From: Deuterostichococcus epilithicus
Taxonomy: Eukaryota > Chlorophyta > Trebouxiophyceae > Prasiolales > Stichococcaceae
Direction: 5' to 3'
Assembly (NCBI GenBank): GCA_033439295.1
Contig: JAVTLE010000005.1
Location: 1,848,501 to 1,912,500 of the forward strand
Length of the DNA stretch: 64,000 nt
A program made the translations under genes and the position numbers. Of this stretch, positions 1-42,202 are shown piece by piece. The notes under the pieces are model-generated. The model saw only the letters and a list, made by a program, of their open reading frames with translations, searched no databases and was not told the origin of the DNA. Within the stretch, counting starts at the first letter, position 1. Each line of letters starts with the position of its first letter.

Positions 1-1614
1 GGCTCAGCAGCGCAAGCGTCGATCTGCGCCCGCACTTCCCCCCGATCTGCTCACCTGTGAAGGCTGGGCGGCCTGCCGCGACCGCCCCTGCAGCATCCTC
101 CTCCATGTCACTTCCCGCCCCCGCCTGCTCGGGCGCGGCTGCCGTGCCGGCGCCCTGCTCGCCGACGTCAGGCAGGAACACGTAGCTGTGCAGCGCGCCA
201 TCTCGTGCCAGAGAGTACAGCACCGGCGGCTGCTTCCCCTCCAGCCTGGCCGCCTCCGTCACATGCCCTCCTGAAAATGTGCCAAAACGCAGGGCTCCAC
301 AGGCTGGCTTGATGCTCCACTCGTGCATCGCTGTTTCAGGCTCCGCTCCCCAGCATGCCGATCGGGGTTCTGATCTTGTATTGCCCAGCTGCTGCAGGAG
401 GCTTACGCGCAAATGTCTACATGTGCGCCCTTGACAAGCGGTGCCGACGCACCCGCAAAGAAGACCGCCAGCGGCGCGTCCTTGTGTCCCGTGAGCGTGG
501 GTGGCCTGAAGCCCTCGACTGGGTCCAGCGAGTACACCCTGCATTGTCGTTGCAGGGGGTCAGTCAAGGCATCGCCTTTGGAGGCCCGCCTTCCCACAGC
601 AGCGGGAGCGCCCCTCGAGCAGGCTGCAGCAGCCCGGGTGGCAATCCCAGGTGCATCAGGTCACTTGCTGAAGCGTCACCTGCTGGTCAGGTCCTTTGAA
701 CCGACGGCGATCCACTGCGAGTCGGCGCTCCAGTCCAGGCAGGTGATGTCGTCGTGGCAGGTGCCGTAGGTGCGGTGCAGCTGCATCGGCGACATGGACT
801 TTGCCAGTGCCGGCGTCTGCCACACCTGCAAGCAGGGATGGCGCATGACTCCAGCTGCGCGTCTGGCCACACCTGCTCGCAGGGAGGCCAGCCGTATATC
901 TAGCTGCCTCGCCTGGTCGTGAGGCTTGTGCAACATGCATAGTGATTCAATCGGCAGCCAGGCCTTCCCCAGACATTGCTTCCTGGGACAAGGGCTATGT
1001 TATCGCGTGCCGCGCCCGGCTCCACCCTTGATGCATGCCTGGCCATAAACTCGCCTGCAACAGGCGGCCCACGGCGCACGCGATGTACCGGCCATCCGGG
1101 CTGAACCGAGCGGCGGCGACTGGCTTCTTAAATGTGAAATGATGCAGTAGCGTCCGCCGCTCGCGGTTGATCAGCAGGCTGCGCCCATCCTCGTCGATCG
1201 ATAGCAGCAGCTGCCCGTTGGGGCTGACACAAACCGTGCGGACCTGATGTTCGGCATGCAACATGCGTTCATTCGTGTGCATTCCCACTGTGGCAGACAC
1301 GCGCAACTGTCGACATGCGGTCTAGCGGCAGCAGTGCATGCACAGCAGTTGGTGCCAAATCGGACCTGCTTGGCGTTCTCGAACGGCAATGTCTCGCTTT
1401 TCGACTCAGTGAGGTTGATCTGCGACACCCATAAACATGTAGGGTTAGCGCCCGTTTGCCGCATACGTCACCGGCCGGCGCATGCAGCCGGTCAGGGCGG
1501 CGGGCGCACCTGCGAAACCCTGTTGCCAACCGGGGACAGCAGTTCACTGCCGTGAATAAGGATGTTCCCTCCACGGTATGGGGCGCCGAGCAGGTTGGAG
1601 AATTGAAAGTTCAT
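1..1614 (-). CDS. PWP2: PWP2 (UTP1) WD40 subunit of the SSU processome, 3' part outside the window
   Basis: PWP2 is a nucleolar WD40 protein of the UTP-B subcomplex, which binds pre-18S rRNA during small-subunit assembly. The start ATG lies at 1614-1612 and opens with MNFQFSNLLGAPYRGGN, the conserved PWP2 N-terminus. Later exons give KSETLPFEN, then LLLSIDEDGRSLLIN and LHHFTFKKPVAAARFSPDG, then QLHRTYGTCHDDITCLDW, and finally LTGHKDAPLAVFF, all in family order. The last exon visible, ending near 46, carries an acidic Gly/Ala-rich insert between WD40 strands. Six introns are seen. The one after residues VGRLLQ begins with GC at 1054-1053 (CAG then GCGAGT) and joins cleanly to VWQTPALAK. Roughly the first third of the usual 850-900 residue protein is present, the rest lying left of the window. 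The identification is secure; the exact ends of the fifth intron are less so. Confidence 0.93.
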
Positions 1615-21412: not shown

Positions 21413-24400
21413 TCACAGCGCTTGGACGGCATTGTAGGCGTTGTCGTTCTCCGACTTGGGCTTGAGACACCTATGACGCAGCGTTCTGCATCGAGTCAGC
21501 AGCAGCAGCAGATCTTGCGCAGCGAAGGACCAGCAAAATATGCACGCCCCAATCTTGTCCACAGCCCACGAAGGAAGGAACGTCACGCACCTGGTCACAA
21601 ACTTGGTGAGGAACGCCACGATCATGGAGCCGGCGCCAATGGCAATGGCGGCCAGCCACTCCTTCCAGTTCTGGCCCTCGACCTTGAAGATGCCCCCCAG
21701 CACCTCCATGAAGATGATCTGCACACGTGTAGCAGGAGCACCCAGTGAGCTCCAGCTGGACATGGCAGTCGTCGGGGGTGACGCCCTGTCAGCCAGGTTC
21801 CGGCGGCAGATCCCGCAGTGGTGGTAGATGTCGGAGCACACACCTGCGCGCCGCCGATGAAGACCCAGATAGCGATGAAGATGTGGCTGTGCAGGATGCC
21901 CTCGAAAATATTGTAGTCGTCGTTCAGCTTGCGGGCATTGATGAAGTTGAACATCTGCAGGTTCGGGCGGATTTGAGCAAAGTCAGTCATGATCATTGCA
22001 AAGCATCCGGTGTGCTGTGATACCAGTCTGCGCCACCTTCGCGAGGAGCTGACGAGGTAGGACTGTGACACGTTGTGAAAGACAGCCTGAACGACAGCAT
22101 GCACACGCGGGAGCGAAATGGCGTGCGGGGTGCACCTGGCAAAGGATGAAGACGTTGAAGATGACCGAGTTGACCTTGTCGCGGCCGTCACGGTTGACGT
22201 TCTTCCACTGCTTGTCTGCCTGGTCGTGCAGCTTGCTGAGCAGGTTCTGGCGCGAAGTGCAGTCTGCTGTCGGGTTCTCGCCGCACAGCTCCTTCTTGCT
22301 CGGCGCCTCGTGCGTTTTCGTCGGCGGCGCAAGCGTCGTGTTTCCGCTTGTCTGCTCGCGCTTGTACTCGCACAGGATCTCCGTGGCTGCATGGCGGAGG
22401 AAACACGGACCGAGTGAGGCGGCGCTGCCGGGCCAGCAGCTCAGTAGCGGGAACTGCAGCTCAGCAGACATCAGCTGTCAAGCAGGGCCGGGGCCAGCCT
22501 GGGCAAGCTGACGACATGCTCATGAGGAACGCTTTTGCAGCGCGACAAACCGCCACGACAGGCTGACTTCAACAGGCAAGCCCTTGGCAATGCCAGTGTC
22601 CCTGCTGAACCGCAGAGACACTGGAGTATCCAGTGGCGGGATTGCTGTAAGAGGCATCCGGGGGCGCACAGTTCAGGTACTCGAAGTTGCGTTGCGCATT
22701 GAAGTTGGGGTCGGAGGCCAGGCAGTCGGAGCCCGGCAGGCAGCACAGGTCGATGCGCGGGCCCTTGCCGTCGTCGTTGTTGTAGGTCGGGATGCCTGCA
22801 GCAAGGGGGGGCCAGCAACACCGTCAAGCCATCTGCTGGACACACACAAGAGCAGGTGCTGGCGCACGCGAGCGGCAGCACGGCAGCGCAGGACCCGCTG
22901 AGAGATGCGAGTCCCTGCTGAGACACGAGGCATCGCGGTGCAGTCAGCACAGCAGCGACAGCGATCCGGCGCATCCGGCGGCAGGCAGCGGCGCTCGCCT
23001 GAAGGAAGGGCGAAGTTTTTGGTGGGCAGCCGCTGCGTCATGACGCCGGCGTACGACAGGTACCCGGGCGCCGTGGAGCCCTGGGTGGGCAGCTCGTACT
23101 CGGAGAAGAACGTGGGCAGGCCGTACAGGATGAGGAACAGCCAGAACATCTGGTAGATGCCCTGCGTCAGGATGTGCCACCACATGTGGCCGTTGATGAG
23201 CGACTCGCGCCGTCCCGCCGGCTTCTGCAGCAGCAGGTCCGGCGTCGGGTCCTCCGTCGCCAGCGCTGCGCAGTAGAAAGGAATCAAATGTGAGCTGCAC
23301 TGTGAAGGGGCAGGCAGGGGATACTAAAATGGACTTATTATCCCCTGGGGCAGGCAGTCTCTGGCAAGTCACGTGATGCCGGCAGCTGCTGGAGGGTGGG
23401 AATGCAGGGGCTGGCCTGGTCATGCAGCGACAAACTCTCGCAAGAACGTAGAGATCTTCAACACATCAGGTAAATCAGGCAGGGCAAGAGTTTCACGTGG
23501 GATGAGCCCTCACAGGCAGCGCCGCTCCAGCTACAATCACACGTGTCAAAGCGCTCACCAAGGGCACCCAGGGAATCCATGATGAGGTTGACCCACAGCA
23601 GCTGTAGCACATTCAGCGGCGTCTCGCCGGAGCCGACGGCGGCGACAAAGGCCACCACCAGCGCCACGAAGTTGACCGTGAGCTGCAGACGCGAAAGCCA
23701 AACACATGTGACAGTGTGACCTGGGATGCATGATGCTGCTGCCGCAGCGTGCCATGAAGCACGCAACCACACTGGCTTGCCCTCATCGCAGGGTCAGCAA
23801 AAAGTGGCCAGAGGTGCACATGCTGCAGCGGAAGTTAGACAGATGCTGCTGGATCCACGTTTTCGTGGTCAGCAGTTCAGACTTTCTCACCTGGAACATG
23901 AGGAACTTCCGGATGTTGTTAAAGACGGAGCGCCCCCACAGCACGGCCTTGACAATGGAGCGGAAGTTGTCGTCCAGAATGACGATGTCCGCCGCCTCTT
24001 TCGCCACCTGCCGGCATGTCAGATGTGGCAATCCAGTCGCTGCCGGCAGGCAACTTGCAGCAGGAGTTCCTGCCTCCCATCCGCTTGCACGTCCAGACGG
24101 CTTGTGCGGCGCTGCTGCACATCAAAACTTGCGCACAAGAGGTGCATTTCGATGGATGACAGAGTGCTGTGGTGGTGCCTTCGTGACACAAGCGGGGCAG
24201 CATGCGCGGGCAGGGGTACCTCTGTGCCGGCGATGCCCATGGCGAGGCCGACATCGGACTCCTTAAGCGCAGGGGCGTCGTTGGTGCCATCGCCGGTGAC
24301 AGCCACCACCTCGCCCATCTCCTTCAGCAGGTGCACCAGTTTGAACTTGTCGGCTGGGGAGCTGCGCGCCAGCACCTGCGCCGATTGAAGCGCCCAGTCT

Positions 24401-27400
24401 TGAAAAAGAACGCCACTTGAAACAAGCGGGAAGGAGCTGCACCAGCCGATGGGCCACTGACGAGTGCAGAGCCCGATCTCCGTGTCCCGTGGTGAGGCGC
24501 CGCTGCTGCAAAAAGACCGCTCCATCTGGCAATACTCTTTCGATGCCCAGCCAAGCCGAGCCTCCAATTCAAACGATGTCACGCCGCAGCCACCCACCTG
24601 GACCTTGGGCAGGACCTCCTTGAGCTCCTCGTCGGAGCGGTTACGGAAGTCGGGCCCCTCGAGCGCGATGCCGCCCTCGGACAGGATGCCGCACTCGCGC
24701 GCGATGTGCTGCGCCGTATACGTATTGTCGCCCGTCACCATGCGCACGGTGATGCCCGCACGCTTGCACACCGCCACCGCGTCCGGCACCTCCGCCCGCA
24801 CGGGATCCTGCGGGCGCGCGACCGGGGAAGTCGATCGGGCAGCCGCCAGGGCGCTGGTCAGTGGTTGACGGTGTGCCTCAAAGCACACTATGACAGTGCA
24901 CAGCAGCAGGAGCGTGTTGTTCGATGGTGGTGTATGATGCAAGGCGGCTGCTGTACTATCGACAGCACGTGGGACCGTGGACGTTCTGACCGATTGAGGC
25001 CTGGACCCACTGCGGCAGATAGAACAGCACAGAAGATGGCAAAGACGGACCTTGATCCCGACGATGCACAGCATGGTGAGGTCCTCGTCGTGCGAGGTCT
25101 CGAAGAAGTCCTCGGGCCGGCCTGGCGCCGACGCCGGGAAGTCTGTGTAGCTGAGGCACAGCGTGCGCAGCCCGCGCGACGCCATCTGCGAGATGATACG
25201 CACCTGTGATTCTGCAGTCTCCACTGCTCGTGAAGAAGGGCAGACGGTGCCCCGAAGCTCGCCTGCACCCTCGCGGATGCGCCGTCGCAGGTGCAGCACA
25301 TCACCATACCAGTTCCGGACTCACCTGCGTGATGGTGGCCTCCAGCTCGGCGCGCTGTTCAGCGCCCAGAGGCACCGCGTCGCCATTGGTGTCCAGCACC
25401 CGCGTGCAGTATTTCAGCACGATCTCCGCGGCGCCCTGCGGAGTGTCGGATGCGCCTTTGAGCGGCGGTGCGCGTCACTCCCAGGAGTGCACTATACTCC
25501 CATCTTCACAGGGCAGGAGTGCATGGATCTCATGGTCTGAATGTGTGGGACTGCAGTGTGCATCAGTAGGTTGCGACTGGGGGAGACTGGGGCGGAGTCC
25601 AGCTGCGTGCCTTGTTGTACAGGCGGAAGCCGTCGTCGGTGCGCAGCAGCACGGAAGCCATCTTTTTGGCGGACGAGAAGCCGTACAGGTTGGCCACCTG
25701 CGGCTCGTTCTGCGTCCGCAGGTCCTTGTAGCTGACCTGCGGGAACGAGTCAGGAGACAGCGGTCAAAACCTCGCACTCGGGAGCCCAGCAGCAGTGTCC
25801 CATCCAGCCGCCTCAGCTGCACTGGCGCAGTGCCCGACATTGCAAGTGCGGACGTTCACATGGGGCAAAGAACATGACAGGAGGCGGCGGGTGGCAGGCC
25901 GAGGAACGCACCTCCCACTTGCGCAGCATCATGAGGAGCGCGCACTCTGTGCGATTGCCCACAAAGTCCACGTGGTCCTTGTCGTTCTCAATGAGGAACG
26001 CCTGCACCAGAGAGCAACCCCTTTGAGCGCCAGCCAACGCATGACTCGTAACATGTTCCTTCCGCTGTGAGCCCCCTACCAGAAGCAGCAGCGCTTGCAG
26101 AGGCCAATCTCCTTCGGTTCGTCTCTGTAGCAGACGAGAGCGAGACGCGGACACTGCAAAGGCTGTGGAGTCGACTGCATCTCGGCCGCTGCTGAGACAT
26201 GCAGAGCGTGCACCTTGGAGTTGAGTGCGCTATTGAGGCTGATCTCGAGGGCAGCGGACTCGGGCATGTCACCAGGCGCCGGCAGGCTGTCGTACTTCCT
26301 GCCGCTGAACCAGCCCTCCACCACCGTCATGCGGTTCTCTGTCAGCGTGCCCGTCTTGTCGGAGCAGATGGCGGATGCGCCGCCCATCGTCTCGCAGGCC
26401 GCCAGCACGCGCACAAAGTTGTTGTCCTGCAGACCGAAGGCAAGCCTTGCCTCAGGAAAGGCATGGCGACCAGCACCTTTGAGCAGGCTGCGATCGAACA
26501 GCTCCAGCATGCAGGCCGGGCTGCAGAAAGACATGTCAACTGAGCTGCACGACCTGTATGCGTTCTTTGAAGAGCCAGAGCCAGAGATAGAGGGAGATCA
26601 CTATCAGCATCGGAAACTGTTGACCGACTGTGGGGACGACCTCGTGGTGGAAACAGAGCACCACCATACCTTCATCATCTTCTTCATGGAGAAGGCCAGG
26701 CTGATGGTGACGGCCAGGGGCAGGCCCTCCGGCACCGCCACCACCAGGATGGTGACGGCAAAGATGAAGAATTGCAGCGGGCCCTCCGAAAACTCGCTCA
26801 GCGGGAAGCCCTTGTTCTCGATCATCCACCTGTGCAGCACATCATGACATGAGCGCGAGCTGGGCAGCATAATGGTTCAACGCTGCGTCGGGGCACAGCG
26901 GCTGACGAAACGAGGTGGCCCACAATTGTCAGATACACCACACTCCGACCCATGAGCGACAAGTTGAGTTTTGCAACGGAAAACCCGCTCACCGGATCAT
27001 AAGGACGACGAAGCAGAGAACGGCGACGCCGAGGCCGACCTTGCCGATGGCGGCGGCCAGCACCGTCAGCTTCTCCTGCAGCGGCGTGTCCTGCGACTCG
27101 CCCACCACCAGTGCCATAGTCTGCCCCCACTCGCTGTGCTCGCCCACTGCTGAGACGAGAATGCGCCCATCGCCCTCCGTCACCTGCATGCATCACATTG
27201 CTAGAGACCTCTGTGCAGGTTGCTTTCAAGAAGATATGGACTATGACTGTCGCAGTTGCTGACGCTGCCTCATCGCTGGTGGTCGTCCGTAGCTCAGACT
27301 GCCACCGCGCTGTCCGACCAGGCAGTGCATTGGCGTGTGTCGAAGCAGCAATCGAAACGATCTGGTGGCCCGAGAGGGTGTGCAGGGCAGATGCTCTGCA

Positions 27401-29070
27401 TACCCACCATACGTGGAAGCTCACCTGGGTTCCAGACCGTACGAAAGGCCGCTCCTCGTTTTTCTTCAGCGGCTCTGACTCCCCAGTCAACGCGGCCTCA
27501 TCGATGACCAGACCGTGCCCGGTGATGTAGATGCCATCAGCTGTCACCTGTGCGAGAGAAGCAGGCACACGGGCTCAGCACGCAGCGGGCTCACCGCATC
27601 CGGTTGTTTGTAGCAGCAGTCGCCCTCCTGTTGCCAGCCAATGCCAGGATCCGGGCATGCAGGCGCTGTGCCGGTAGTTGCTTGACTGCGTCCATGCGAA
27701 GCCTCCCTCGAATGCAAGCCGTGCTGCGGGAATCTCCCACCTTGTCGCCGGTGTCCAGGATCAGGATGTCGCCGACGCAGAGCTCCTCGTTGCCGACCAG
27801 CTGCTCCTCGCCGTCGCGCAGGACCTTCACCTCGATGACGTCCTTCTGCGCGTTCAGCTTCTTGAACTGCAGGTCCTTCTGGTAGTCGTTGAGCGACGCT
27901 GCAGCCGGGACGCACAAATCCTGTAAGCGCGTCGGCCCCTTGCTGTTTCCCCCCCGCCAGTCGCAGTAAACCATGCTTGTAGAGCTGGCATGCTCGTAAG
28001 AGTCTCCTAACAACAATGGTAGATAAGATCCTGAACGCAGCACGCCGCGGGACGGGCATGCACAGTCGAAGGATAGGCTTGGCCCGCAGCACTGCGCACC
28101 GACGCCGCTGACGACGATGACGGCCACCCAGATGGCCACGCCCTCGGACCAGGCACTCTCCTCCCGCTGCTCTTTGACCGCCGAGCCCAGCACCGTAGAG
28201 ATCTGCAAAATTCCTCTAAGCGTCAGCACCTGCTGAAGCCTTGAGGTTTTGCGGCATGAGAATGCAACGGCAATTGCCCAATCAGAGCAGTGTCAGAGCA
28301 GTGGCGAGAAGCTTACCAGAGCCGCCGCCATGAGCAAAATGAGCGTAGGGTCCTTCAGGTTGGTGATGAGCAGCCTGAAGAACGACTTCAGGGGGACTGC
28401 CTTGAACCTGCGAGCAATCAGCTTGTTTAGAATGCGTGCCTTGACATACTGCTCGCATCATTCCGCCGCCAACCAGCTGGACAACCAGCTCCACGAACAT
28501 CAGTCGTGGCAGTCGACGCGCTACCTGTTGGCGCCGTAGGCTGTCTGCCGCGAGTCTATGGACGTGCCGCCTGGCGCCGCGGGGCTGAGCCCTACGTTCA
28601 TCTCCACATGCAGCGCGGAAGCCAGGCCCTCAACCCCGCCATATTGCTTGTGCAGCTTCACCGTGTCTTTGTCCTGCAGCGACGTGATGAAGCTTCAGCA
28701 CCTGTTACCTCATTGCTTGGAGCAAATCGACGTGCAGTCGTGCAGAGCGTCGGCCAGAAGCTAGGAGCCACCTCACTTTTAGACGACGCACCAGCGCTGA
28801 CAATCGACATGAAATCATCGGCCAATCAGACAATGGATTTGCGTGCGCAAATGGAGTGCAAAACTATGTCGGTGTGTTTAGAGATCGCGCGTCGATGGCG
28901 CGAACTATCCCGCAACACAGCTCAGGCGTGTTTCACACCTCGTTGAGGGTGTTCAGGTCGCGCAGCGACACTCCAAAGCCGGCCTCGGCCTTCGCCTGCG
29001 CGGCCTCCGCATCGACGCGCGCTGCTTGAGCCTTGGCACTCTCCTTTTTCACCTTTGCCTTCTTGACCAT
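21413..29070 (-). CDS. P-type IIB (PMCA/ACA-like) calcium-transporting ATPase
   Basis: This pump exports calcium from the cytosol across the plasma or an internal membrane. About 23 exons are seen. The start [20 protein letters not shown] is a basic, coiled, possibly regulatory N-terminus. It is followed by [16 protein letters not shown], the actuator motif LTGES near 27490, the [20 protein letters not shown] helix, the phosphorylation motif CSDKTGTLT near 26355, the ATP-site segment around [14 protein letters not shown], the hinge [20 protein letters not shown] near 24290 and [18 protein letters not shown] at the last membrane segments. All are in PMCA order. The loop after [10 protein letters not shown] is enlarged to about 165 residues with many Cys, across exons 18-20. 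The C-terminus is short, so any autoinhibitory calmodulin site is more likely N-terminal, as in plant ACAs (inference). Two introns start with GC, at 25610-25609 and 22998-22997. The borders of exon 19 are the weakest part. Confidence 0.95.
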
Positions 29071-29776: not shown

Positions 29777-32700
29777 ATGGTCGGCGTCATTGTTGTCGCT
29801 GGCACGTCCAGCGGCGTGGGCAAGACGACGCTATCCGTGGGCCTCATGGCTGCGCTCAGGTCAGTTCGCAGACGCTGACACAACTGCCCGGCCTCGTGGG
29901 ATTACAACATCGCCTCCAAGGTCAACGAGCACCCTTCACTGCGCGGAAGGGTGCTCGTGGCCTCTACCCCCAATGTCCGCAAATGACATCATGTGCTCAC
30001 CTGCAGGCAACGGGGGCTGACGGTGCAGGCCTTCAAAGTTGGTCCAGGTGACATGCTTCCCGCACCCACGTTCCCAGGGCTGCGCCCAGACCCTGGGGAA
30101 GATGTCTTGAGCAGCATGCCTCGGCAGTCCGCGCCGAAAACGAGCGCCAAAAACGAGACCCATTTCTCAGATCCATGTTGTGTAATGCAGACTTCCTGGA
30201 CCCACTGCACCATGAGGCGGCCACGGGGCGGCCGTCCATCAACCTGGACGGCTGGATGATGGACCAGGGCCAGAATGCGGCGGCGTTCCACCGTGCCACC
30301 GCCGACGCGGACGTGGCAGTGGTGGAGGGCGTCATGGGCCTGTTTGACGGGCGCGACGGCGCCAGCGAGGCCGGCAGCACTGCGCAGATGGCCAAGTGGC
30401 TGGGCGCGCCCGTGCTGCTGGTGCTGGACTGTTGGGCGCTCGCGCGGTCGGCTGCGGCTATGGTCAAAGGCTTCATGGTGAGCAGAATGTTCAACGAACT
30501 CTTTGGAAGCCAGGCCAGGCCTGCGGCATCAGCGGCAAGGCAGCAGACGCTGTGTGGCCGCCTGTGGCAATCACGGCACAGCAACTGACGCAAAAGCTGC
30601 AGCTTTCTTTCCGGCACAACGAGTAATGACCCTCAGCCACGCGTCGTGTGCAGGAATTTGACGAGCAGCTGCGCATTGGGGGCCTGCTGCTGAACAGGGT
30701 GGGTGGCGCCGCACACACCCAGTGGCTACAGGATGCCATTTCGTGTTCCGGAGTGAAGGCAGACTTCCTTGGCGGCATCCCAAAGGTACATCACTAAGGC
30801 TGTGTTCGATGTGCTCAGTAGCGTGGCAGGTGCGACCCTGACACGCTTGATCGCACTGGGCTGACTGCAATGCAGAGCTGCTTGATCATATGGGCGCACT
30901 TGCACCGCCGCCAGGTGCCACGGTATGCGCCCTGGGGCACCGCCAGTCGCGGCGGTGAGGCAGCACTCAATGCCGGTGTACTGCCCAATGCAAATACAAG
31001 CTCTCTGCTCTGTATTACAGGACGACCGGGTGATGCTAAAGGAGCGTTACCTGGGGCTGCACATGCCGGGCGAGGAGGGGGTGCCGGCCGACTACATCGA
31101 GCGCCTGGCAGCGCTGCTGGAGGCCAATGTGGACATGGAGGCGCTGCTGGCCATTGCCAACTCGGCAGCACTGCCGCCGCCGCCGGCGGAGGCGGTGCCA
31201 CGGCTGCCGGCGTTGCCGGACGATACGCTGACCGTTGCCGTCGCGCAGGACGCCGCCTTCGGCTTCTACTACCAGGAGTGAGTGCTTGACGCTGTTCGTT
31301 GCGTCGCACCTTTGTCGAGACGCCTTGCTGTTGCCGGCCACTCCACGCACTGAACACCCTCCTGGAATGACAGACGACGTGGGGCCCCAGGTGAGCTATT
31401 GCGATCCAAAAGCAGTGCCAGCAATAGCTGCGAAGCTCAGAACCTCACCTCAGCATGACCGTGCCTAACTAAAACAGGAACTTGGCGCTCATGGAGGCGG
31501 CCGGCGCGCGGCTGGTGCGCTTCTCGCCCATGGAGGAGCCGCTGCCGGGCGGCATCTCGGGGCTGTACCTGGGGGGCGGTTACCCGGAGCGGCACTCACG
31601 GGCGCTGGCGGCAAACCGCGGCCTCAAGGCGGCCATTGCGGCCTTTGCCAGGGCCGGCGGCGTGGTGTACGCGGAGTGCGGCGGGCTGATGTACCTCAGC
31701 CAGAGCCTGCAGCCGCTGGACAACCTGCCAGTTGCCATGGGTGCGTGCCACTGCATGTCGGACAGTAAAAATCTCATCCAGCACACACCAGCCACACAGT
31801 CGCCAGCACATAGCAACCTCTGGCCTCGGCTGCAGCATGCGTCTGGGTCACTTACCATCTCATGAAACGACCGGCCGGCATCCTTCATCGGTTGATCGAT
31901 AGCAGTCGCTCTGAGTGGTGAACGTCAGATGTCTGACCGCAACTTGTGTGCCCCTGCGCCGCAGTGGGCATCTTCCCCTTCCGCACGGTCATGACTCAGG
32001 GCAAAATGAAGATGGGGTACGTGGAGGTGGAGACGCAGGCGACCTGCCGCCTGTTCCCGCCGGGCGCCAAAGTGCGGGGCCACGTGTTCCACTTCTCGGA
32101 GATGGTGCAGGAGCAGATTGTGAGCGGGCTCAGCGGGCTGCCTGACATGAGCGGCGGCCACAACTGGGATCACGCCTACCGCGCCACCATGCAGACGCCC
32201 GGTGCGCATGTGCTGCCCTCGTGTGCTGACTGCGCCACTCGGCTGCATCCAGGCGCATCCGAGGTTCTCTGTTGTCGCGAGCGGTGCGTGTAATGTCCCG
32301 ACTGCCATCATGTTCAGCCAGACAGGTAGCCCTCACGGTGGGCTTTAGGTCTGGAGGTGTTCTGATGGGTCTGATCGTATCTGAACCATTCCCCATGTTG
32401 CCGCCGCAGGCGCGGAGCCGGTGGAGGAGGGGTATGCCACCGGCAATGTGCTGGCCAGCTATGTGCACCTGCACTTTGGCAGCGCGCCCGAGTTTGCGCA
32501 CGCCCTGGTGTCGCGCTGCCGCGAGGTCGACGTCGACGCGGCGGACGCGGCGGCTCGGACAGCGGCGGAGGCAGCCAGCCTGCACCGGCGCGGCAGCAGC
32601 GAGGCAAGCGCCAGCCAGGGCGGCGGTCACGGCAGGGGCCTGGCGCGGCATCCGGGCAGCCACATGGCGCACGTGCGCAGTGTGCCCAACCTCGCAGACG

Positions 32701-35700
32701 TGCAGAGCGGTGCTCGGCCCTCCCGCCGAGGGTGCGCAAGGTGCTCAACACCCCACACTCTTCACGCTGCATCTGTGCCCTTGAGGTTCCGGGAACAGGC
32801 TGGCGGCTGCGCAGCATTTCTCGAGCTCTCCTGGTGCTGTTGTCTTCCTGGCGGCCACATGGTGTCGCAAACAACGAGGGTCAGCAGGGTCACTGCGCGG
32901 ATGTGCAGGCGGACGCACAGCGACCAGTCGTCAGGCGAGGAGGAGACGCAGTCGGCGGGGCGCGCGTCCAGCTTAGAGGCGACCTCGCCCAGCAGCTTCA
33001 GGCGGCAGAGCAGCCACGGCCGGCATGAGGAGGGCCTCTGGCCCGACAGCCAGGTGCGTCTGCAGGGTCAGAGCTCGTTGACTGCTGCAAGACTTCGTTT
33101 TGCTGGAAACGAGTGCCTGCACAGCATCCTGCCGCAGACTTCTGCAGCTTGTGCGCGCTTTGCATGCCAGAGATGCATGCTGTCACATGCTGAATAGAGA
33201 GTACCTGTGATTGAGTGACCAGACTGCTTCCGACCTGGCATTTCAGCAAACCCAACTGCTGCGCAGGAGCTGAAGGGCCTGATGCAGCGGCCAGGCTCGC
33301 CGGCGACGACGCTGCAGCAGATCGCCAGCATGAACGACCTCTGCAGCCCCGGCGGCTCGCCCAGCGGCACGCCGCCCAGCGAGGACTACTACGCCTCCGG
33401 CGCAGGTCCGTGCCTGTCGAATTATTTCAGGAGCTGCTGCAAGATCACGTGTTCTGCCCTCCCGCTGACCCCATGGCGGTGCTTGCATGCGGCCGGCTGA
33501 CTCTGCCCCGCGCAGCAGCCATGGCGGCAGTCTGACATCTGAAACCTTGTGGAAGTGCAGCTGTTGGCGATCGGTTTCCAACAGGTTTCTCCCCTCAGAC
33601 ACCGTGATGGCTGCTGTTTTTTGTGTCGACCTCATTCGTGTTGCGTTGGCGCAGGGCGGCAGACTCAGGGGCTGTGGGAGCCACGGCAGTCGGGCAGCAT
33701 CTCGCGGTCAGCCAGCGGCATGCTGCCAGCCAGCGCCTCCGCCGAGCCGCTCAGCATGCAGCGCAGTGCTTCTGCGGTGCGCTGTTTGTCGCCAAGATGC
33801 TGTGCTGCCGCCCCGCGGGGCTTGACAGCTTGGCTGTGCAGATGACCTTTTTTTCAGCGCACAGCACGGTCCGCACCTCTGCCGGGCCGCCCTGTCACTT
33901 GCACATCCTTCGATGCTCTTGCGGTGACACCTGAACTGGCGACGGACAGCAGCCGAATGGGGCTCTCCTCTGCTGGCAGATGTCGCCGTCAGCCTTTGCG
34001 GTGCCGAGTGCGCGGCCGGGCGGCGGGCTTCATGGCGGCAAGTCGCGGCCGGTCAACCTGATGCGCGACCGGATGCACCCCAGCGCCTCTGTCCCAGGTT
34101 GGCGTCTCACCACTTGCAGAATTGAGACCTACCAGAGTGCCTTGTCCTTCACGACAGAATTCCGAGGGGTCACCTGGCATCGGGTCAGCGGTGGTGCAAA
34201 TCGGGTCGCAAGGCGTGCGCAAGCAGCCCTGCTTGGTGTCGCAGGCGGCAGAGCAATAGGGACGACCGCTGCTCGCCACTCCGTGCAAGCTCCACTCCTC
34301 CCAAGAAGCTGAGCGCCCCGCCATGTGCCACGCAGATCACATGGACAAGCGGCAGCGGCAGCACAGGACGTGGCCGGGCGCAGGCGGCCGCGCCAGCGGG
34401 CGGCTGCCCAATGGATTGTCGCACTCGCGGTCGGCACCGCTGCCCAATGACGCCATTATCAGCCTGCTGCCCAGCGGCACGGAAGTGCTGTTCGCCCTGG
34501 GCCTCGGCGGCAGGTGGGACTCGTGCTTGGACGCTGCATTCTCTCGCATTCAGGAAGCTCACAATGGCGCAGCACCTTGTCGTCAGGTCGGCGGGGCTGC
34601 CCAAGGATTTGCACGCTGCTTCCTTGCACCGCGTGTCAGACTGCCCCTCCAGTGCCAAGGGTTCATGTTTGTTGTGGCCTTGCGCTTGCCGCCTGGCATG
34701 GAAATGCCGCTGCTAGGCGGGCAAATGGCGCATCAATCCACCCTGAAACCTCCTTCCGAACTTGCGACCTGATGCTGCTTCAGCTGCGAGCTGACTCAAC
34801 GTGCATCCTTGCTGTGCAGGGTGGTGGGGGTGTCGGACCAGTGCGACTGGCCGCCCGAGGCAGCGGAGCGGCCGGCGGTCAGCCGCTCCAGGGTGGACTG
34901 CCGCAACATGACGCCAGCAGAGGTGGAGGCCCAGATGCAGGCCTTCAAGCAGCAGGTGAGCAGGCTGCGCATTGGCTGATGCCGCTCATGGCTTTTGCAG
35001 CTTGCGAGGGCAGGTCGTGAGACACAAAGGCAAGCTTGCTGTGAACCATGGCATTGTTGCTGCACGGGAGGGGTGGCTGCCGGCCCCCAGAGGGGCTCAG
35101 CATGCGCAGGGTCACACACTCTGCATAAGACTGACTCCACGCGAGACTGAGGGGACAGCCGGGTGCAGTCGCTCGGAGCCGCCGTGTGGCCTCTCGCAAG
35201 CACCCAAGCTGCTGCCTTGGCTGGCAGGGCGTCGGCGCCTTCGAGGTGGACGAGGCGGCGCTGGCGGCCCTTGCCCCGGGCCTGGTGCTGACGCAGGACG
35301 CGTGCCCCACCTGCGACGCCGATGCCGACGCCGTGACAGCGGCGCTGCAGCGGGCCGGGCTGCTGGGCGGCGGCCTCCGCACGCCGACGTGCGTGCTCAA
35401 CCTCGCGCCGCGCACGCTCGCCGATGTGCTGGAGACCATCTTGGAGGTGCGCCAAGCGCAATGTTGAAAGAATCCTTCTAGTTGTTCCCTGCTGTGTTGG
35501 GACCCGGGTTGCTTTCGGGCTGCATGTGCGGGCAGCCTGTGCCGCTCGTTTTGGCTCCGCCGGTCGCGCCCACGGTGGCAGCTGGCTCGGCATCGCACCG
35601 CCGCCCGGCCGCCACGCGTGGGTGGATATTCTCACCACTGCTGCGGCCGCAGGTGGGGCACGCCGCGGGCGTGGCGCAGGAGGCGGGCGGCCTGGTGGAG

Positions 35701-37096
35701 CGGCTGCGGACGCGGCTGCGCGCCGTCGCTGCCGCGGTGGCGCGTGCGCACCGCCGCCCCCGCGTGCTGTCCCTCGAGGGCCTCACCCCCCTGGTCCTCG
35801 GTGAGCACCCTTTGCACCGTTCGTGGCCCTCGTATCTGTCAACTCCCCCATGCGCCAGTGGCAGCCGCTGCAGACCGGCGCCATATTGATACCAACTCTG
35901 CAGGGAGCCGTGCCATGCGGGCAGCTGCTTCCGGCTCAGGTCGCTGAAGCGGCGCGGCAGCCTTGGGTCGGCCTCCCCTGTGCCCTTCTGGGGCTGCCTC
36001 GCATGTGATGGTCGCTGTGCCAGCGGAGCTCGGCCTCCTCTGGACGCAACGACCGTCGCTATCAATCCTGCCGCTGAACACACGAAGCACTTCCTTTCCC
36101 TGCAGGCGGGCAGTGGCTGCCGGATGTGAAGGAGCTGGCTGGCGGCTCGGATGAGTGGCAGCAGGCCGGCGACCCGCCTGTACGCATCACCTGGGACCAG
36201 GTGCTTGAAACTTGTGATGTCTGGACTCGATGCAGCAGACTGCTGCCTCTGAACCAGCGAAGCGCCAGCCTTGAGCTGCGGTGATCGCGTGCTAGTGGAT
36301 CGACCTGCCTGTGCAAGCCTGCCACCGCCTCTGCTGTGCACTGCACGCCTCAGCTCCGGAGCAGTGTGACACAGCGCCTCGAGGCCCTCTCAGGGCGTCA
36401 GCATACCACAAACCCTGTCTCGCCCTTCCTTCCCACTGCTGCCTGCACCCACTCATTCCTCTCGGACCCTGCTTGCCCAGGTGCGTGCGTATGCGCCGGA
36501 GGTGCTGGTGCTGTCGCCCTGCGGCGCGGGCGTGGCGTTTGGCGTGGAGCAGGCCTGCGCCCTGGCGGCGCTGCCCGGCTGGTGGGCGCTGCCCGCCGTG
36601 CGTTCCGGCCGCGTCTTCGTTGCCGACCACAGCCTGTTCAGCCGCCCGGGCCCCAGGTGAGTGGCGCTGGCACCATGCATGTGTGCAGTCGGCAGCCGCT
36701 CCGCAGACAGCCGCTGGGCCAAATGGAAGGATGCTTGCGACGCCCCCGCCTGAGCAGCTTGAGCCAGTGGGGCGCGGCGTGTGCGAGCCTGTGCTGCGCA
36801 ACACCGCATGCAGCCCCCTCCTGCGGCTCCAAGGCCCTGGGCGTGCAGCTGCCATCGCCCCCGGGCGTGTCGGTCGGCCGAGCCACTGCAACCCCCGGAG
36901 CTACCGCAAACCCCGAGCCTCTCAACCCTAATTGTTGCGCAGGCTGGTGGACGGCGTGGAGGCGCTGGCGAGGATGCTGCACCCAGACCTGATCGGCAAG
37001 CGCGTGCCAGAGGGCACCGTGCGCAAGCTGGCCCTGTCCGGCGGGCAGCGCTGCCGCCAGTCCGCGCTGCCAGGCCTGTTCGTGCCATACGCCTGA
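29777..37096 (+). CDS. Fusion of cobyrinic acid a,c-diamide synthase (CobB/CbiA) and BtuF-like cobalamin-binding domain
   Basis: Nineteen exons in unbroken phase predict 1083 residues. Residues 1-470 form a whole CobB/CbiA enzyme, which uses ATP and glutamine to amidate corrin a and c carboxylates. The parts are Walker A GTSSGVGKTTLSVG, KVGP joined across an intron to DFLDPLHHEAATGRPS, GVMGLFDGRDGASEAGSTAQ, the amidotransferase LYLGGGYPERHS, nucleophile VVYAECGGLMYLS (Cys334) and ATGNVLASYVHLHF (His453). Residues about 490-750 are a Ser/Gly/Arg linker coded by exons 8-13. Residues 752-1075 match BtuF-like receptors: DAIISLLPSGTEVLFALGLG, VVGVSDQCDWPPEA, LVLTQDACPTCDADADAV, NLAPRTLADVLETILEV, GQWLPDVKELAGG and FSRPGPRLVDGVEAL. 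Exons start at 29777, 30007, 30191, 30654, 31021, 31478, 31965, 32410, 32909, 33267, 33655, 33980, 34336, 34820, 35228, 35653, 36106, 36481 and 36943. No signal peptide is seen. Introns and base composition look native. Confidence 0.9.
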
Positions 37097-38068: not shown

Positions 38069-41000
38069 CTAGCGCAGCGCAAATGCTGCCCGGGTCGACG
38101 TTGTGCGGGTTGCATCAGACATCTTGGGCTGCTCCAACTTCTCATCTGGCTCCGGCCGCTGCCGCTCCATGTGCCCGGTGTACATCTGCGCAGATCATTG
38201 CGCGCCTTTGCCGTCGTCACCAACTGCGAAGAGTTTCCGTGTGGCAACCAGGACCCCACTTGCTGCACATCAACAGACAGCTCGTCGTGGATTGCGCAGC
38301 TGCTGCATGTGCAATCATGGGTGGCGTGACCCATGCAGCGGGGTGACACATATTAGTTACGCAACCTGCCTGGCGGGGACGAGAGATGCGCTTGGTCTTC
38401 TCCTCGCTCATCTCCTTCCACTGGGTGATCCAGCCCACCGAGCGCGCCACCGCGAACAGGACGGTGAACATGCTGACGGGGATGCCCAGAGCGCGCAGCA
38501 CGATGCCCGAGAAAAAGTCCACCTGCGAAGAGCATGTTTCGACTTGCCCGGGTTTCGGCGCCGCAGGAGGCGTTGCCGCAGTCGCTGGCAGGCGGTCATG
38601 TTTGCAAATTTGCTCTCCTCAGCGACGTGTCTGGTGTCAATCAGGGGGCGCATTCCGCCGGGCGGCTGGCGCCACGTTCTGCCAGGCGGCGGGCACAATG
38701 CAGGGCTCACGTTGGGGTACAGCCCGCGCTTGAGGAAGTACTCGTCCTGCGTCGCGATCTTCTCCAGCTCCACCGCGATCTCCAGCAGTGGGTCCTCCCT
38801 GCCGTGACAACAGGCGTGCATGCCTCAGAATCGCCTTTCGGTTGCAATGCACCCGCCTGCGACAAATGTGCATCCCGCAGCAGAGGGGAGTGTCGAGGTC
38901 TCGTGTTCACGACAGAAGCAGGTGGCGCACTCGATGTCCAGCTGCTCGAACAGCTGGTGGGCGATGTTCTGCATGACCTTTGCGCGCGGGTCGAAGGTCT
39001 TGTACACCCTGCGGGACGCAAGCCGGGCAAAGTTGACATGCCCTCCCCGCCAGGACGGACGGGCGAGCGCCTCTGAGCAGCTTGCACACGAGCCCTCACG
39101 AGCAGGCATGTGCCGGTGCGTCAGGGGGCATCGCATTGGTGCAGGTCATGGTCAGGTCGTGTCGTCCCACAGGAGGCGCACCGGTGGCCAAAGCCCATGA
39201 GGCGGAATGAGTCCTCCCTGTCCTTGGCGCGCTTGATGGTGTCAGGGATGTTGGCCTTCGTCCCGATCTCCTGTACACATGCCGCAGTGGGATGCATGGG
39301 TCCAAGTCGGGGCCTTGGGACCGGCCCCGCTTCCCGAGCAGGTTTCAGGAGTCAAGCGCTACATGCGTTTGCACATCCATCGGATGGTGGAGCAAATGAG
39401 GCGTGATGTGCGCTGTGCAACAGCCATGGTTGCCAGTGCTGGTTCGAACACGCCAGCAAGGGCTCACCTCTAGCATTTTAATCACCGCCTCGTTTGCGCC
39501 GCTGCACAATGAAACCCACTTGTTTCAGTCGCCTTGTCAGCGCAACACTGGCGCAGCCGCGCAGCGCGGCAAAGCATGCGATGTGAATGTCGGGCGTGCT
39601 GACATGACGGAAGGTCTGACACAGAGACAGCTGCTACACTCAAGAGCGTCCCAGCTCACCCGTGCGCTGGGCCCCACAGCGTGGCGATGCCAGAGGCGAT
39701 GCAGGCGTATGGGTTCGCCTGGCTGGAGCCTGTGCGACATTCGATCACAGAGTCAGCGCGGCAGGCTGAAGACTCGATGCTTGCGAGAGAATTTCGGACT
39801 CTCGACTCCTTGCCGTGGCTTGCAGCGCATCAGGCTGCACACGCTGCGCCAGCGCACCTGCTGTGCGGACCGTCGAGGTCGACGCATTCTGCTCGTGGTC
39901 CATGTGCAGTATGATGAACAGCTCCAGCGCCCTCACTTTCACGGGGTTGAGCTCGTACGGCTCGGTGGGCACGCTGAACATCATCATCTGCGCCAGGTGG
40001 GCGACACCCCTTTGCATTCAGCAACGACACGCGGCGGGTGATTGACGATGCAATGTCGACACACGGGCACCTGCAGGTCTGCATATGGCGTCCGCGCTGC
40101 CACATAGTAGACATGCAATTGCCAGCACAGCGCAGCCTTGAGGGGCCAAGGCCGAACCAGGAAGTTCTCCACGTAGCTCAGGTGGTTCCGCGGGTACATA
40201 ATCGGCTGCCCTGCGGTGGAAGCATGGGGGGCCGCATCAGCCTGCAATAAGACGTGCACCCCGGCCTGCGCCAGGTGCAGCAAGCATTTGGGGGAGACAG
40301 TTCGACTGCCGCAGCTGCAGGATTTCTTGCAGGATGTCAGTGCGTGAAAAGCCAGAGATGCCCATTACGTCATGCGATGCGCTTGCCCGCATAATGCCAT
40401 GCGACGCGCTTGCACACACCAATGGACGTCTTGTAGGCGATGGCCGCGAGAGTCGGCATCTTGGCGATGATGCGCAGCGCGGCCAGCTCCCGCTGCTCCG
40501 GGTCGTTCACATCGGCGGCATCGTGGTAGAAAGCAGACAAGGCACCCACCACGCCCACCTGCGAGACGCGCAGCGGTAAGCCCTCGCGTCGCTGCAGCGG
40601 GCATAGACTTGACATATTCGGAGACTGAGTTGAGTAGCTGGTGCAGCACATCCATGCGGGCAGCATGTGGTGTGCATCCGTGAGACCAGAGTGCCCGATG
40701 TTAGTGCAGCCTGCGACGGTGGTGATGCACTTGGAAAGCAGCGCACCATCACGGCCATCGGAGCGGCATCGTGCCGGAAGCCCTGTTCGTGTCACATTGA
40801 AAGCCGGATCAACTCAACAGTCATCAGCACCAGCCAGGCAGGAATGTGAAAGGCAATCGATACCACTGCATCCAGCTGCAGTATTCGCAGCACTCGCAAG
40901 GCTGCTGTTGCGCCTATCCACCTTGTAGAACTGGATGAGGGGCTCCGGCACCATGGTGTGGTGCACGATGTCCCAGTTGAACTGCTTGCGCTGCTCGTCG

Positions 41001-42202
41001 TTAGGCAGTTCCCCATACAGCAGCAGGTAGCAGCTCTCCAGGAAGTTGCCCGCGCCGCCGGGCGCCGGATCTGCCAGTTGCTCGATCGGGTACCTGTGGC
41101 AGGGCGACAGACGCAGTGTGTTGACATTGGCCATTGCACCCACAGGTTGCAACACGGTCTTTTCCATTTAGCAACGAAATTTTACACGTATGCTCCCTAC
41201 CCTTCGAGGGCAGCAGGCATGCAGGAAGAAGCAGGTCACGGCCTTCACTCACCCCCGGTACATGAGCACGCCCTGCTTGCCGTCGATATACGTGATCGTC
41301 GACTGCGGCAACAGTGACAGCACATCGTTTGCATGCCAATCGATGGGCGCAGCAGGACAGGGCGCCGCTGCCAGACATGCAGCTGTCGCTGGAAAGCGCA
41401 TGACTGCGACCCCACCTCACATGACGCTGTGCTGTTGAAGCCTGGGTCAAAGGTGCAGATGCCATGCCTGCGGCAGGCACAGAAGCATTGTTTTCTTCTG
41501 GCCTACATTTGCCCATCATCCACAGCTTGTTTCAATGCGTCTCAGATGATCAGGCAGCGCAAGCCCAGCTTTGTGATGCCATCAGCGTCGCGATAGTGGG
41601 CTTGACGAAGCGCACCCATTGTACAGCTTCCTGATGTCCACAAACCTCTGGCCGGCCGAGTCCTCCATGTACGGCAATTCCACCTGTTGCACATGTAATA
41701 CAGTTGTTGGAGGCGAGGCAGAGACCAGGTCGGAATGAACATCAAACGACCAGAGAGCCTCACGGCACATCTCAGCAGGTTGACTGAGGAGTTCCATGTT
41801 CTATCGCGCAGTCTTGCTGGCCACTTTGGCCCTCGTAAATGCGACCGCAGTATTCTGACCGCTGGCGTGATGTTGGCTCAGCATGCGTGCTGCCCACGAC
41901 ACGTCCTTCTCTCAAGGCTTTGCTACGTCTCGGAGACATTCTAGAAGGAATTTTGATACGCTGCAACTCGACCCCATGTTGACCCGCTGACCCCCCCGGT
42001 CGCCGGTGCCGCACCACCATCTCCACCAGCCCTGACCGCAGCAAGTCGCTGTGCGGATGTTTCAGAGGACAAACTGGCAGCTCCCTCCTCTCTGAGAGAT
42101 AGAGACGCCTGGATTCCGGAACATCTGACTTGGCGGCATTGGCATCACCTCATCCCCATTTGGCAATGTTAGCCTCGCGGTCGCGCCCTCCTCCTCCCCC
42201 AT
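38069..42202 (-). CDS. Type II (GltA-like) citrate synthase
   Basis: It condenses oxaloacetate and acetyl-CoA to citrate. Sixteen exons follow bacterial GltA and plant peroxisomal CSY order: [12 protein letters not shown] at the start, then [112 protein letters not shown] with the first catalytic His, [19 protein letters not shown] with the second His, and the Asp of [15 protein letters not shown]. The last exon begins [11 protein letters not shown] and ends AFALR before a TAG. No mitochondrial presequence, PTS2 or SKL-type PTS1 is visible, so its compartment is open; an upstream first exon may be missed, because the chosen ATG gives only about 18 residues before the first intron. The last intron starts with GC at 38369-38368 (CAG then GCAGGT). 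Confidence 0.92.

Follow-up and report, generated by a model that had tools for sequence, protein, structure and literature searches.

A predicted fusion of CobB with a four-cysteine binding-fold domain in the green alga Deuterostichococcus epilithicus: a candidate corrinoid salvage enzyme

Why would a green alga carry an enzyme that amidates a corrin ring? Corrinoid synthesis is described as never having passed to eukaryotes (PMC7242693). In Deuterostichococcus epilithicus, a 64,000-nucleotide stretch of assembly GCA_033439295.1 (contig JAVTLE010000005.1, positions 1,848,501 to 1,912,500 of the forward strand; hereafter the window) nevertheless holds a gene that reads as a CobB/CbiA cobyrinate a,c-diamide synthase followed by a linker and a binding-fold domain with four characteristic cysteines (four-Cys domain). 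Judged by gene structure and conservation, the two halves are one real fused protein, a new combination of known parts. In some bacteria the genes for the same two proteins lie side by side, in genomes in which a marker of de novo corrin synthesis was not found. The fusion may be a corrinoid salvage or repair enzyme, a reading with about an even chance of being right.

One gene for CobB and a four-cysteine domain

The features of the gene, with their positions in the window and the evidence for each, are as follows.

29777-37096 (+): whole fused gene, rebuilt as 19 exons with 18 GT-AG introns
29777-32535 (+): CobB/CbiA cobyrinate a,c-diamide synthase domain, about residues 5-470, exons 1 to part of 8 (profile matches and conserved columns)
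31677-31679 (+): codon of Cys334 in YAECGG (conserved-column alignment)
32536-34445 (+): Ser/Gly/Ala/Arg-rich linker, about residues 475-753, part of exon 8 to part of exon 13 (coding frame in 6/6 exons and composition)
34446-37093 (+): PF01497-fold domain of a four-Cys family without signal peptide, from about residue 754, exons 13-19 (profile and family alignment)
34842-34844 (+): codon of invariant Cys783 (86/86 rows)
35303-35305 (+): codon of invariant Cys846 in TQxxCxxC (86/86 rows)
35312-35314 (+): codon of invariant Cys849 in TQxxCxxC (86/86 rows)
36520-36522 (+): codon of invariant Cys988 in PCG (86/86 rows)
Exons 1-7 (+): 29777-29859, 30007-30047, 30191-30477, 30654-30785, 31021-31277, 31478-31740, 31965-32201
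Exons 8-13 (+): 32410-32731, 32909-33053, 33267-33405, 33655-33776, 33980-34097, 34336-34513
Exons 14-19 (+): 34820-34955, 35228-35446, 35653-35800, 36106-36200, 36481-36656, 36943-37096

The coding sequence of 3252 nucleotides translates into 1083 residues with no internal stop, in the order CobB, Ser/Arg-rich linker, PF01497-fold domain. The original prediction had described 19 exons in one continuous phase, and rebuilding the gene reproduced its coordinates to the base. It had also taken the agreement of splice phases as an argument for a single gene. That argument is weak because the splice sites were chosen to fit, and the single gene is upheld instead by the coding scores of the linker. 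When codon scores trained on exons 1-7 and 14-19 only are applied to linker exons 8-13, the predicted frame tops the three frames in all six, and each linker exon (-0.013 to 0.389) scores above every intron frame (maximum -0.2). Guanine-cytosine (GC) content at third codon positions (GC3) is 0.82-0.96 in these exons versus 0.89 in the training exons, and overall GC content in the same test is 0.71-0.75 in exons versus 0.55-0.63 in introns. The linker exons look coding. Between residues 481 and 750, the linker is 17.8% Ser and 10.7% Arg and contains ten R-x-x-S/T motifs. Exon 1 begins with ATG, and no targeting peptide is seen in the fusion because the upstream frame reaches a stop without an earlier in-frame Met; a further exon, outside the present model, might still lie upstream.

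The N-terminal half matches both parts of the enzyme, the P-loop CbiA domain (PF01656, 69.3 bits) and the GATase_3 domain (PF07685, 111.9 bits), and passes two curated models, the CobB model NF002204 (472.4 bits, cut-off 254) and TIGR00379 (397.1 bits, cut-off 261.4). Models of related enzymes stay below threshold on the same protein, at 388.6 bits (cut-off 560) for the CfbB Ni-sirohydrochlorin model NF033195 and 347.1 bits (cut-off 950) for the bifunctional CobBC model NF053748. Near-invariant columns, in which 95% or more of 82 bacterial CobBs share the residue (rows L089 and L095 dropped), are kept at 50 of 51 positions, the amidotransferase Cys among them; at the remaining one, position 44, the alga has Leu where Ile is usual. 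The cysteine concerned, Cys334 in YAECGG, is presumably the class I glutamine amidotransferase nucleophile. The algal CobB thus appears complete and intact, as the original prediction had proposed.

The C-terminal half is another matter. It matches PF01497 (41.2 bits, cut-off 27.5), and the original prediction called it a BtuF-like corrinoid receptor. That name does not hold: the fusion reaches 20.9 bits on the BtuF model NF002894 (cut-off 234), bacterial relatives start without a signal peptide, and the four cysteines are unmatched in an alignment with Vibrio BtuF. Relatives occur in many bacterial and archaeal phyla in the genome-contig scan, and 85 loci were sampled, namely five plasmid relatives from tblastn and 80 loci kept from at least 577 genome-contig relatives. 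All four cysteines are invariant in the 86 aligned rows (the alga and the 85 loci), corresponding to C30, C93, C96 and C227 of the bacterial member L018. The four annotated plasmid relatives all begin, read by eye, no more than a few residues from the first strand and lack a signal peptide. Upstream of the match, 62 of the 85 loci have an open frame of at most 30 residues; the start is not fixed in the other 23. Assignment of the algal domain to this family rests on its cysteines and overall similarity, with identity of up to 45% to bacterial relatives (L006). It is a divergent member because other conserved sites differ, with Gly for Trp at 936, Asp for His at 781 and Pro for Ser at 967.

A structure model of L018 (predicted local distance difference test score, pLDDT, 94.8) finds its nearest solved folds among heme and B12 binders, including RhuT, a Shigella heme-binding protein and Vibrio BtuF (5ysc); E. 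coli BtuF (1n2z) ranks 19th. Its cysteines lie in loops after the strands at 23-26, 86-89 and 221-224, and judging from the fold they would line the ligand cleft. Against Vibrio BtuF, the single BtuF compared in this way, the first Cys is matched by Ser, PCG falls in a gap and TQxxCxxC has no aligned counterpart. L018 reaches the cut-off of no NCBIfam model, three scans of viral contigs returned no relative, and PHROGs gave no match. By sequence and predicted fold, a more fitting description of the algal C-terminal domain is that of an intracellular protein related to the B12/heme binding-protein fold.

Bacterial gene pairs and the origin of the two halves

The algal CobB served as query against the genomes of four-Cys loci (n = 20) and against genomes of six phyla and two classes, 752 genome searches with repeats included. 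Among the 105 best-scoring CobB loci fetched (90 and a further 15, each with about 1.5-2 kb on either side; one weak match, L096, uncounted), a four-Cys gene adjoins cobB in four. None of these pairs is among the 15 loci added from comparison genomes, and in some genomes one CobB copy alone was examined. The best CobB matches of all searches are members of pairs: G181 (Actinomycetota search, 444 bits, 53% identity), followed by G362 (Chloroflexota search, 428 bits, 52%) and G598 (same class as G362, 416 bits, 53%), each with the four-Cys gene head to head with cobB. The pair at L136 is one of these divergent ones, and the four-Cys sequence at L153 is cut by the contig end, leaving 147 residues in which three of the four Cys positions are visible. 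The fourth pair (G637, Acidobacteriota search) is in tandem, with a 4-base overlap. Two further candidates that resembled pairs, L145 and L155, were rejected: their BtuF-type proteins start like lipoproteins and lack the four cysteines.

The surroundings of two of these pairs fit corrinoid salvage. At L152 the pair is followed by genes for BtuF-like, BtuC-like and ABC ATPase proteins, CobQ, CobO, a nitroreductase/CobT-type frame and CobU. The tandem pair belongs to a gene run (L187:2511-16654) that encodes BtuB-like, PduO, BtuF-like, BtuC-like and BtuD-like proteins, the four-Cys protein and CobB, then CobQ, CbiR, one unscanned frame, CobT, CobS, CbiB and an aminotransferase; PduO, CobB, CobQ, CbiR, CobT and CobS exceed their NCBIfam cut-offs, the transporter parts falling below theirs. 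The four-Cys protein is unlikely to be the transporter's receptor, since at L152 and L177 its gene has that of a distinct BtuF-type protein, which starts like a lipoprotein, next to it.

With CbiC (PF02570) as the marker of de novo synthesis, none of the four pair genomes gave a match, the one with the L187 run included, versus 35 of 50 other CobB genomes (7/10 and 28/40; one-sided Fisher p 0.012). None of these 50 has the pair beside the CobB copy examined. Tetrapyrrole methylase matches number two to three per pair genome (one of the three in G637 below cut-off) versus six to seven in six comparison genomes. CbiC was also not found in six genomes with a four-Cys protein and no full CobB match (G002, G003, G005, G006, G016 and G020). 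The contrast is supportive rather than proof because the genomes may be incomplete, two of the four with a pair are relatives and the best CobB matches supplied the comparison genomes. By gene content, the pair genomes appear to import rather than make corrinoids. The pairs, which stand in bacterial genomes that gave no CbiC match, back the salvage or remodelling role suggested by the original prediction and are independent support that the combination of CobB and four-Cys protein is meaningful.

The CobB phylogeny points in the same direction. In a tree of 85 rows (without L096 and fragments of at most 350 residues), the algal CobB is sister to the three CobBs of divergent pairs with support of 97/85, and with Acidobacteriota added the grouping stands at 98/90 (L089 and L095 were dropped from the later trees). 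The CobB of the tandem pair (L184) falls elsewhere, so that on this tree the two genes came together in bacteria on at least two occasions. The next nearest CobBs form a small clade, L097-L100 (G022, G086, G053 and G065), which came from the cyanobacterial search and stands apart from the main cyanobacterial clade; grouping the alga with this small clade alone is compatible with the data (approximately unbiased test, p-AU 0.619). A plastid origin of CobB, with the alga placed in the main cyanobacterial clade (16 rows), was rejected, if marginally (p-AU 0.043).

Trees of the four-Cys domain place the algal sequence on a long end branch (1.5), with L006, L031 and L034 as the nearest rows (83/86 and 82/64 in two trees, from both of which L004 was dropped). 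Holding it with the three divergent-pair members is compatible with the data (p-AU 0.879), and the quick free search was incomplete, since the held tree is 33.9 log units better. A phylogeny of both domains, which the original prediction had called for, therefore speaks on one side: the CobB half joins paired bacterial CobBs, and the C-terminal half forms no cobB-linked grouping. Transfer of both genes as a single pair is supported in part, with the CobB tree and gene adjacency in favour and the C-terminal tree not showing it.

Beyond the pairs, the neighbourhoods of the 85 four-Cys loci were surveyed with a few representative protein queries, covering at most some 20 kb per locus. A DUF71/Dph6-like gene lies less than 500 bp from the four-Cys gene in nine loci (12 loci in all), CobO does so in five (seven in all), and BtuC occurs in nine loci, a BtuF-type protein in nine and a TonB receptor in seven. 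In a Bipolaricaulota genome, the four-Cys domain and the CobO/BtuR corrinoid adenosyltransferase share one open frame (L030:5131-6762, + strand); at L016, L036 and L014 they are separate neighbours. For DUF71-B12 genes, 75 of 102 are reported to adjoin B12 transporter genes, and a role in B12 salvage is proposed (PMC3541065). The data point to a widespread four-Cys family with partial links to corrinoid salvage.

Two further associations were seen in the survey. A DUF6580 gene lies upstream of the four-Cys gene, less than 500 bp away, in eight loci (nine in all; for example L048:4789-5370 and L081:9328-9981), and one may guess that its product is a membrane partner of the four-Cys protein. On an Alicyclobacillus plasmid (L004:1611-5924), the four-Cys gene sits directly 3' of both annotated ribonucleotide reductase subunits.

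A possible corrinoid salvage enzyme and the alternatives

The reading given an even chance is that of a single, soluble, probably cytosolic enzyme of corrinoid salvage or repair, whose four-Cys domain would capture the corrinoid that CobB amidates. After a corrinoid or a corrinoid precursor has entered the cell, the four-Cys domain would hold it, perhaps by thiols at the cobalt or via a bound metal. The flexible linker would keep that domain close to CobB, which would turn the ring's a and c acetates into amides at the expense of ATP and glutamine. An incomplete or deamidated corrinoid could then enter nucleotide-loop assembly; likely substrates in the alga would be cobyrinic acid or deamidated corrinoids. 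A broader and more tentative proposal, somewhat less probable than even, is that some algae possess a bifunctional enzyme that forms corrin-ring amides, with a four-Cys corrinoid carrier built in and a CobB half derived from salvage-only bacteria. It would be a eukaryotic enzyme of corrin-ring repair or remodelling, and the four-Cys family would be a new intracellular class of corrinoid-handling proteins that partners CobB, CobO and DUF71.

Several observations weigh against corrinoid salvage. Amidation at a and c alone would leave the ring incomplete. The fold neighbours of the four-Cys domain bind heme and iron too, and the algal domain groups with no cobB-adjacent member in the trees. The corrinoid link of the family is partial, because cobB is present in none of the stored stretches of the 85 four-Cys loci first fetched, and BtuC, CobO or BtuF in only nine, four of them from related Bipolaricaulota or Acetothermia. 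Among the 50 other CobB genomes, which may be incomplete, 15 likewise gave no CbiC match. Another alga, Chlamydomonas reinhardtii, is reported not to grow on cobinamide plus 5,6-dimethylbenzimidazole (PMC4850488); precursor salvage is thus not general in algae.

Among the alternatives, one keeps the fusion and changes its substrate to another tetrapyrrole, such as sirohydrochlorin or a chlorophyll or heme derivative, with the four-Cys domain binding the pigment or its metal. The close kinship of CobB and CfbB (the 388.6-bit match), the heme binders among the fold neighbours and the description of corrin synthesis as not passed to eukaryotes (PMC7242693) all favour it. It is unlikely, though far from negligible: the CfbB cut-off is missed and that of CobB passed, and the pairs at L152 and L187 sit with B12-type transporters, CobQ, CobO or PduO, and CobU or CbiR/CobT/CobS. 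Slightly less probable again is a sensor or store, in which CobB would be turned on or off by events at the cysteines (corrinoid or redox/metal binding), or the domain would buffer corrinoid. A class III binding-protein fold with invariant cysteines in three of its loops would suit such a role, as would the ten R-x-x-S/T motifs of the linker, which could serve regulation, and no transport role is expected without a signal peptide. The CobO fusion, however, is equally compatible with a carrier.

Doubts about the gene itself carry less weight. Two neighbouring genes could have been joined by the reading: CobB would then stop within exon 8 or later, and another gene would start near the in-frame ATG at 34341 (exon 13), which is also a potential start of a shorter form. 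Retention of an intron would bring in an in-frame stop in 16 of 18 cases, the exceptions being introns 2 and 8, and the openness of intron 8 would suit two genes. The TGTAA poly(A) signal occurs neither in the linker nor past the stop codon within the stretch examined, so that its absence from the linker carries no weight. The composition of exons 9-12, however, is that of coding sequence in the predicted phase (GC3 within 0.82-0.96) and the two proteins are linked in some bacteria as well, so that two genes are improbable. An assembly error, contamination or a decaying relic is less probable still, even with the sequence known from a single strain: the gene has 18 GT-AG introns and no stops, keeps 50 of 51 near-invariant CobB columns and all four cysteines, and has eukaryotic neighbours on both sides.

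A contaminant scaffold, which the original prediction had named as fatal to its claim, is accordingly unlikely. A family search matched open reading frames of the window to TBP, Syf1/CRNKL1-type HAT repeats, pseudouridine synthase, protein kinase, Hep_59, cation ATPase, citrate synthase, importin-alpha-type Arm repeats with IBB, and FAD oxidoreductase. Several of these families are eukaryotic nuclear ones present on both sides of the fused gene, and bacterial contamination is unlikely because the neighbouring frames belong to eukaryotic families. The fused gene is probably a nuclear gene of the green alga. It is flanked by genes on the opposite strand for citrate synthase (38397-41068, -) and a cation ATPase (21596-27899, -), both extents approximate. 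The GC content of the window is 61.6%, and tRNA and Rfam scans of it returned no match.

If the corrinoid salvage reading is right, some algae may be able to salvage or mend molecules of the B12 type on their own. Some algae are known to remodel pseudocobalamin, with COBT, COBS and COBC reported as present and cbiZ and cbiB as not found (PMC4850488), and the algal enzyme or genes responsible for cobamide remodelling are described as still to be found (PMC7733943). A corrin-ring amidase in an alga would open this question to experiment, through a gene that can be knocked out and a protein that can be assayed.

Comparison with known systems

An algal CobB-like sequence is not wholly unprecedented, since a CobB-like transcript is reported from a prymnesiophyte (haptophyte) (PMC4057078). 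The architecture is a different matter: no described eukaryotic protein that joins CobB to a binding domain was known to the original prediction, and a search of mostly open-access literature likewise found none. The algal protein matches CobB/CbiA (NF002204, TIGR00379) over its full length and above both cut-offs, but differs in lying in an intron-rich eukaryotic gene, in being fused to a binding domain, and in occurring in a eukaryote, where no de novo corrin pathway is expected. Bifunctional CobBC (NF053748) likewise joins CobB to another cobalamin enzyme, although its partner is an aminotransferase.

BtuF shares the class III binding-protein fold, seen as PF01497 on the alga and as a solved-fold match from the L018 model. 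It is periplasmic with a signal peptide, whereas the algal domain is internal and has cysteines of its own. Closer are four-Cys COG0614-like proteins annotated as "cobalamin-binding protein" (for example Qipengyuania citrea WP_163886790.1), with which the alga shares the four cysteines, TQxxCxxC, PCG and RPGPR. In the loci examined these bacterial proteins stand alone, save for the one CobO fusion, whereas the algal domain is placed behind CobB. DUF71-B12 (Dph6-like) genes also neighbour the four-Cys gene, and the Dph6 branch makes an amide using ATP; they are non-homologous to CobB, and an amidohydrolase or other salvage role is proposed for the B12 branch (PMC3541065). Among algal proteins, the cobalamin acquisition protein CBA1 is likened to the fusion by description: it has a binding-protein-like fold proposed to bind B12, but it is needed for uptake and seen targeted to the endoplasmic reticulum, and the account drawn on mentions no CobB part (PMC10828217).

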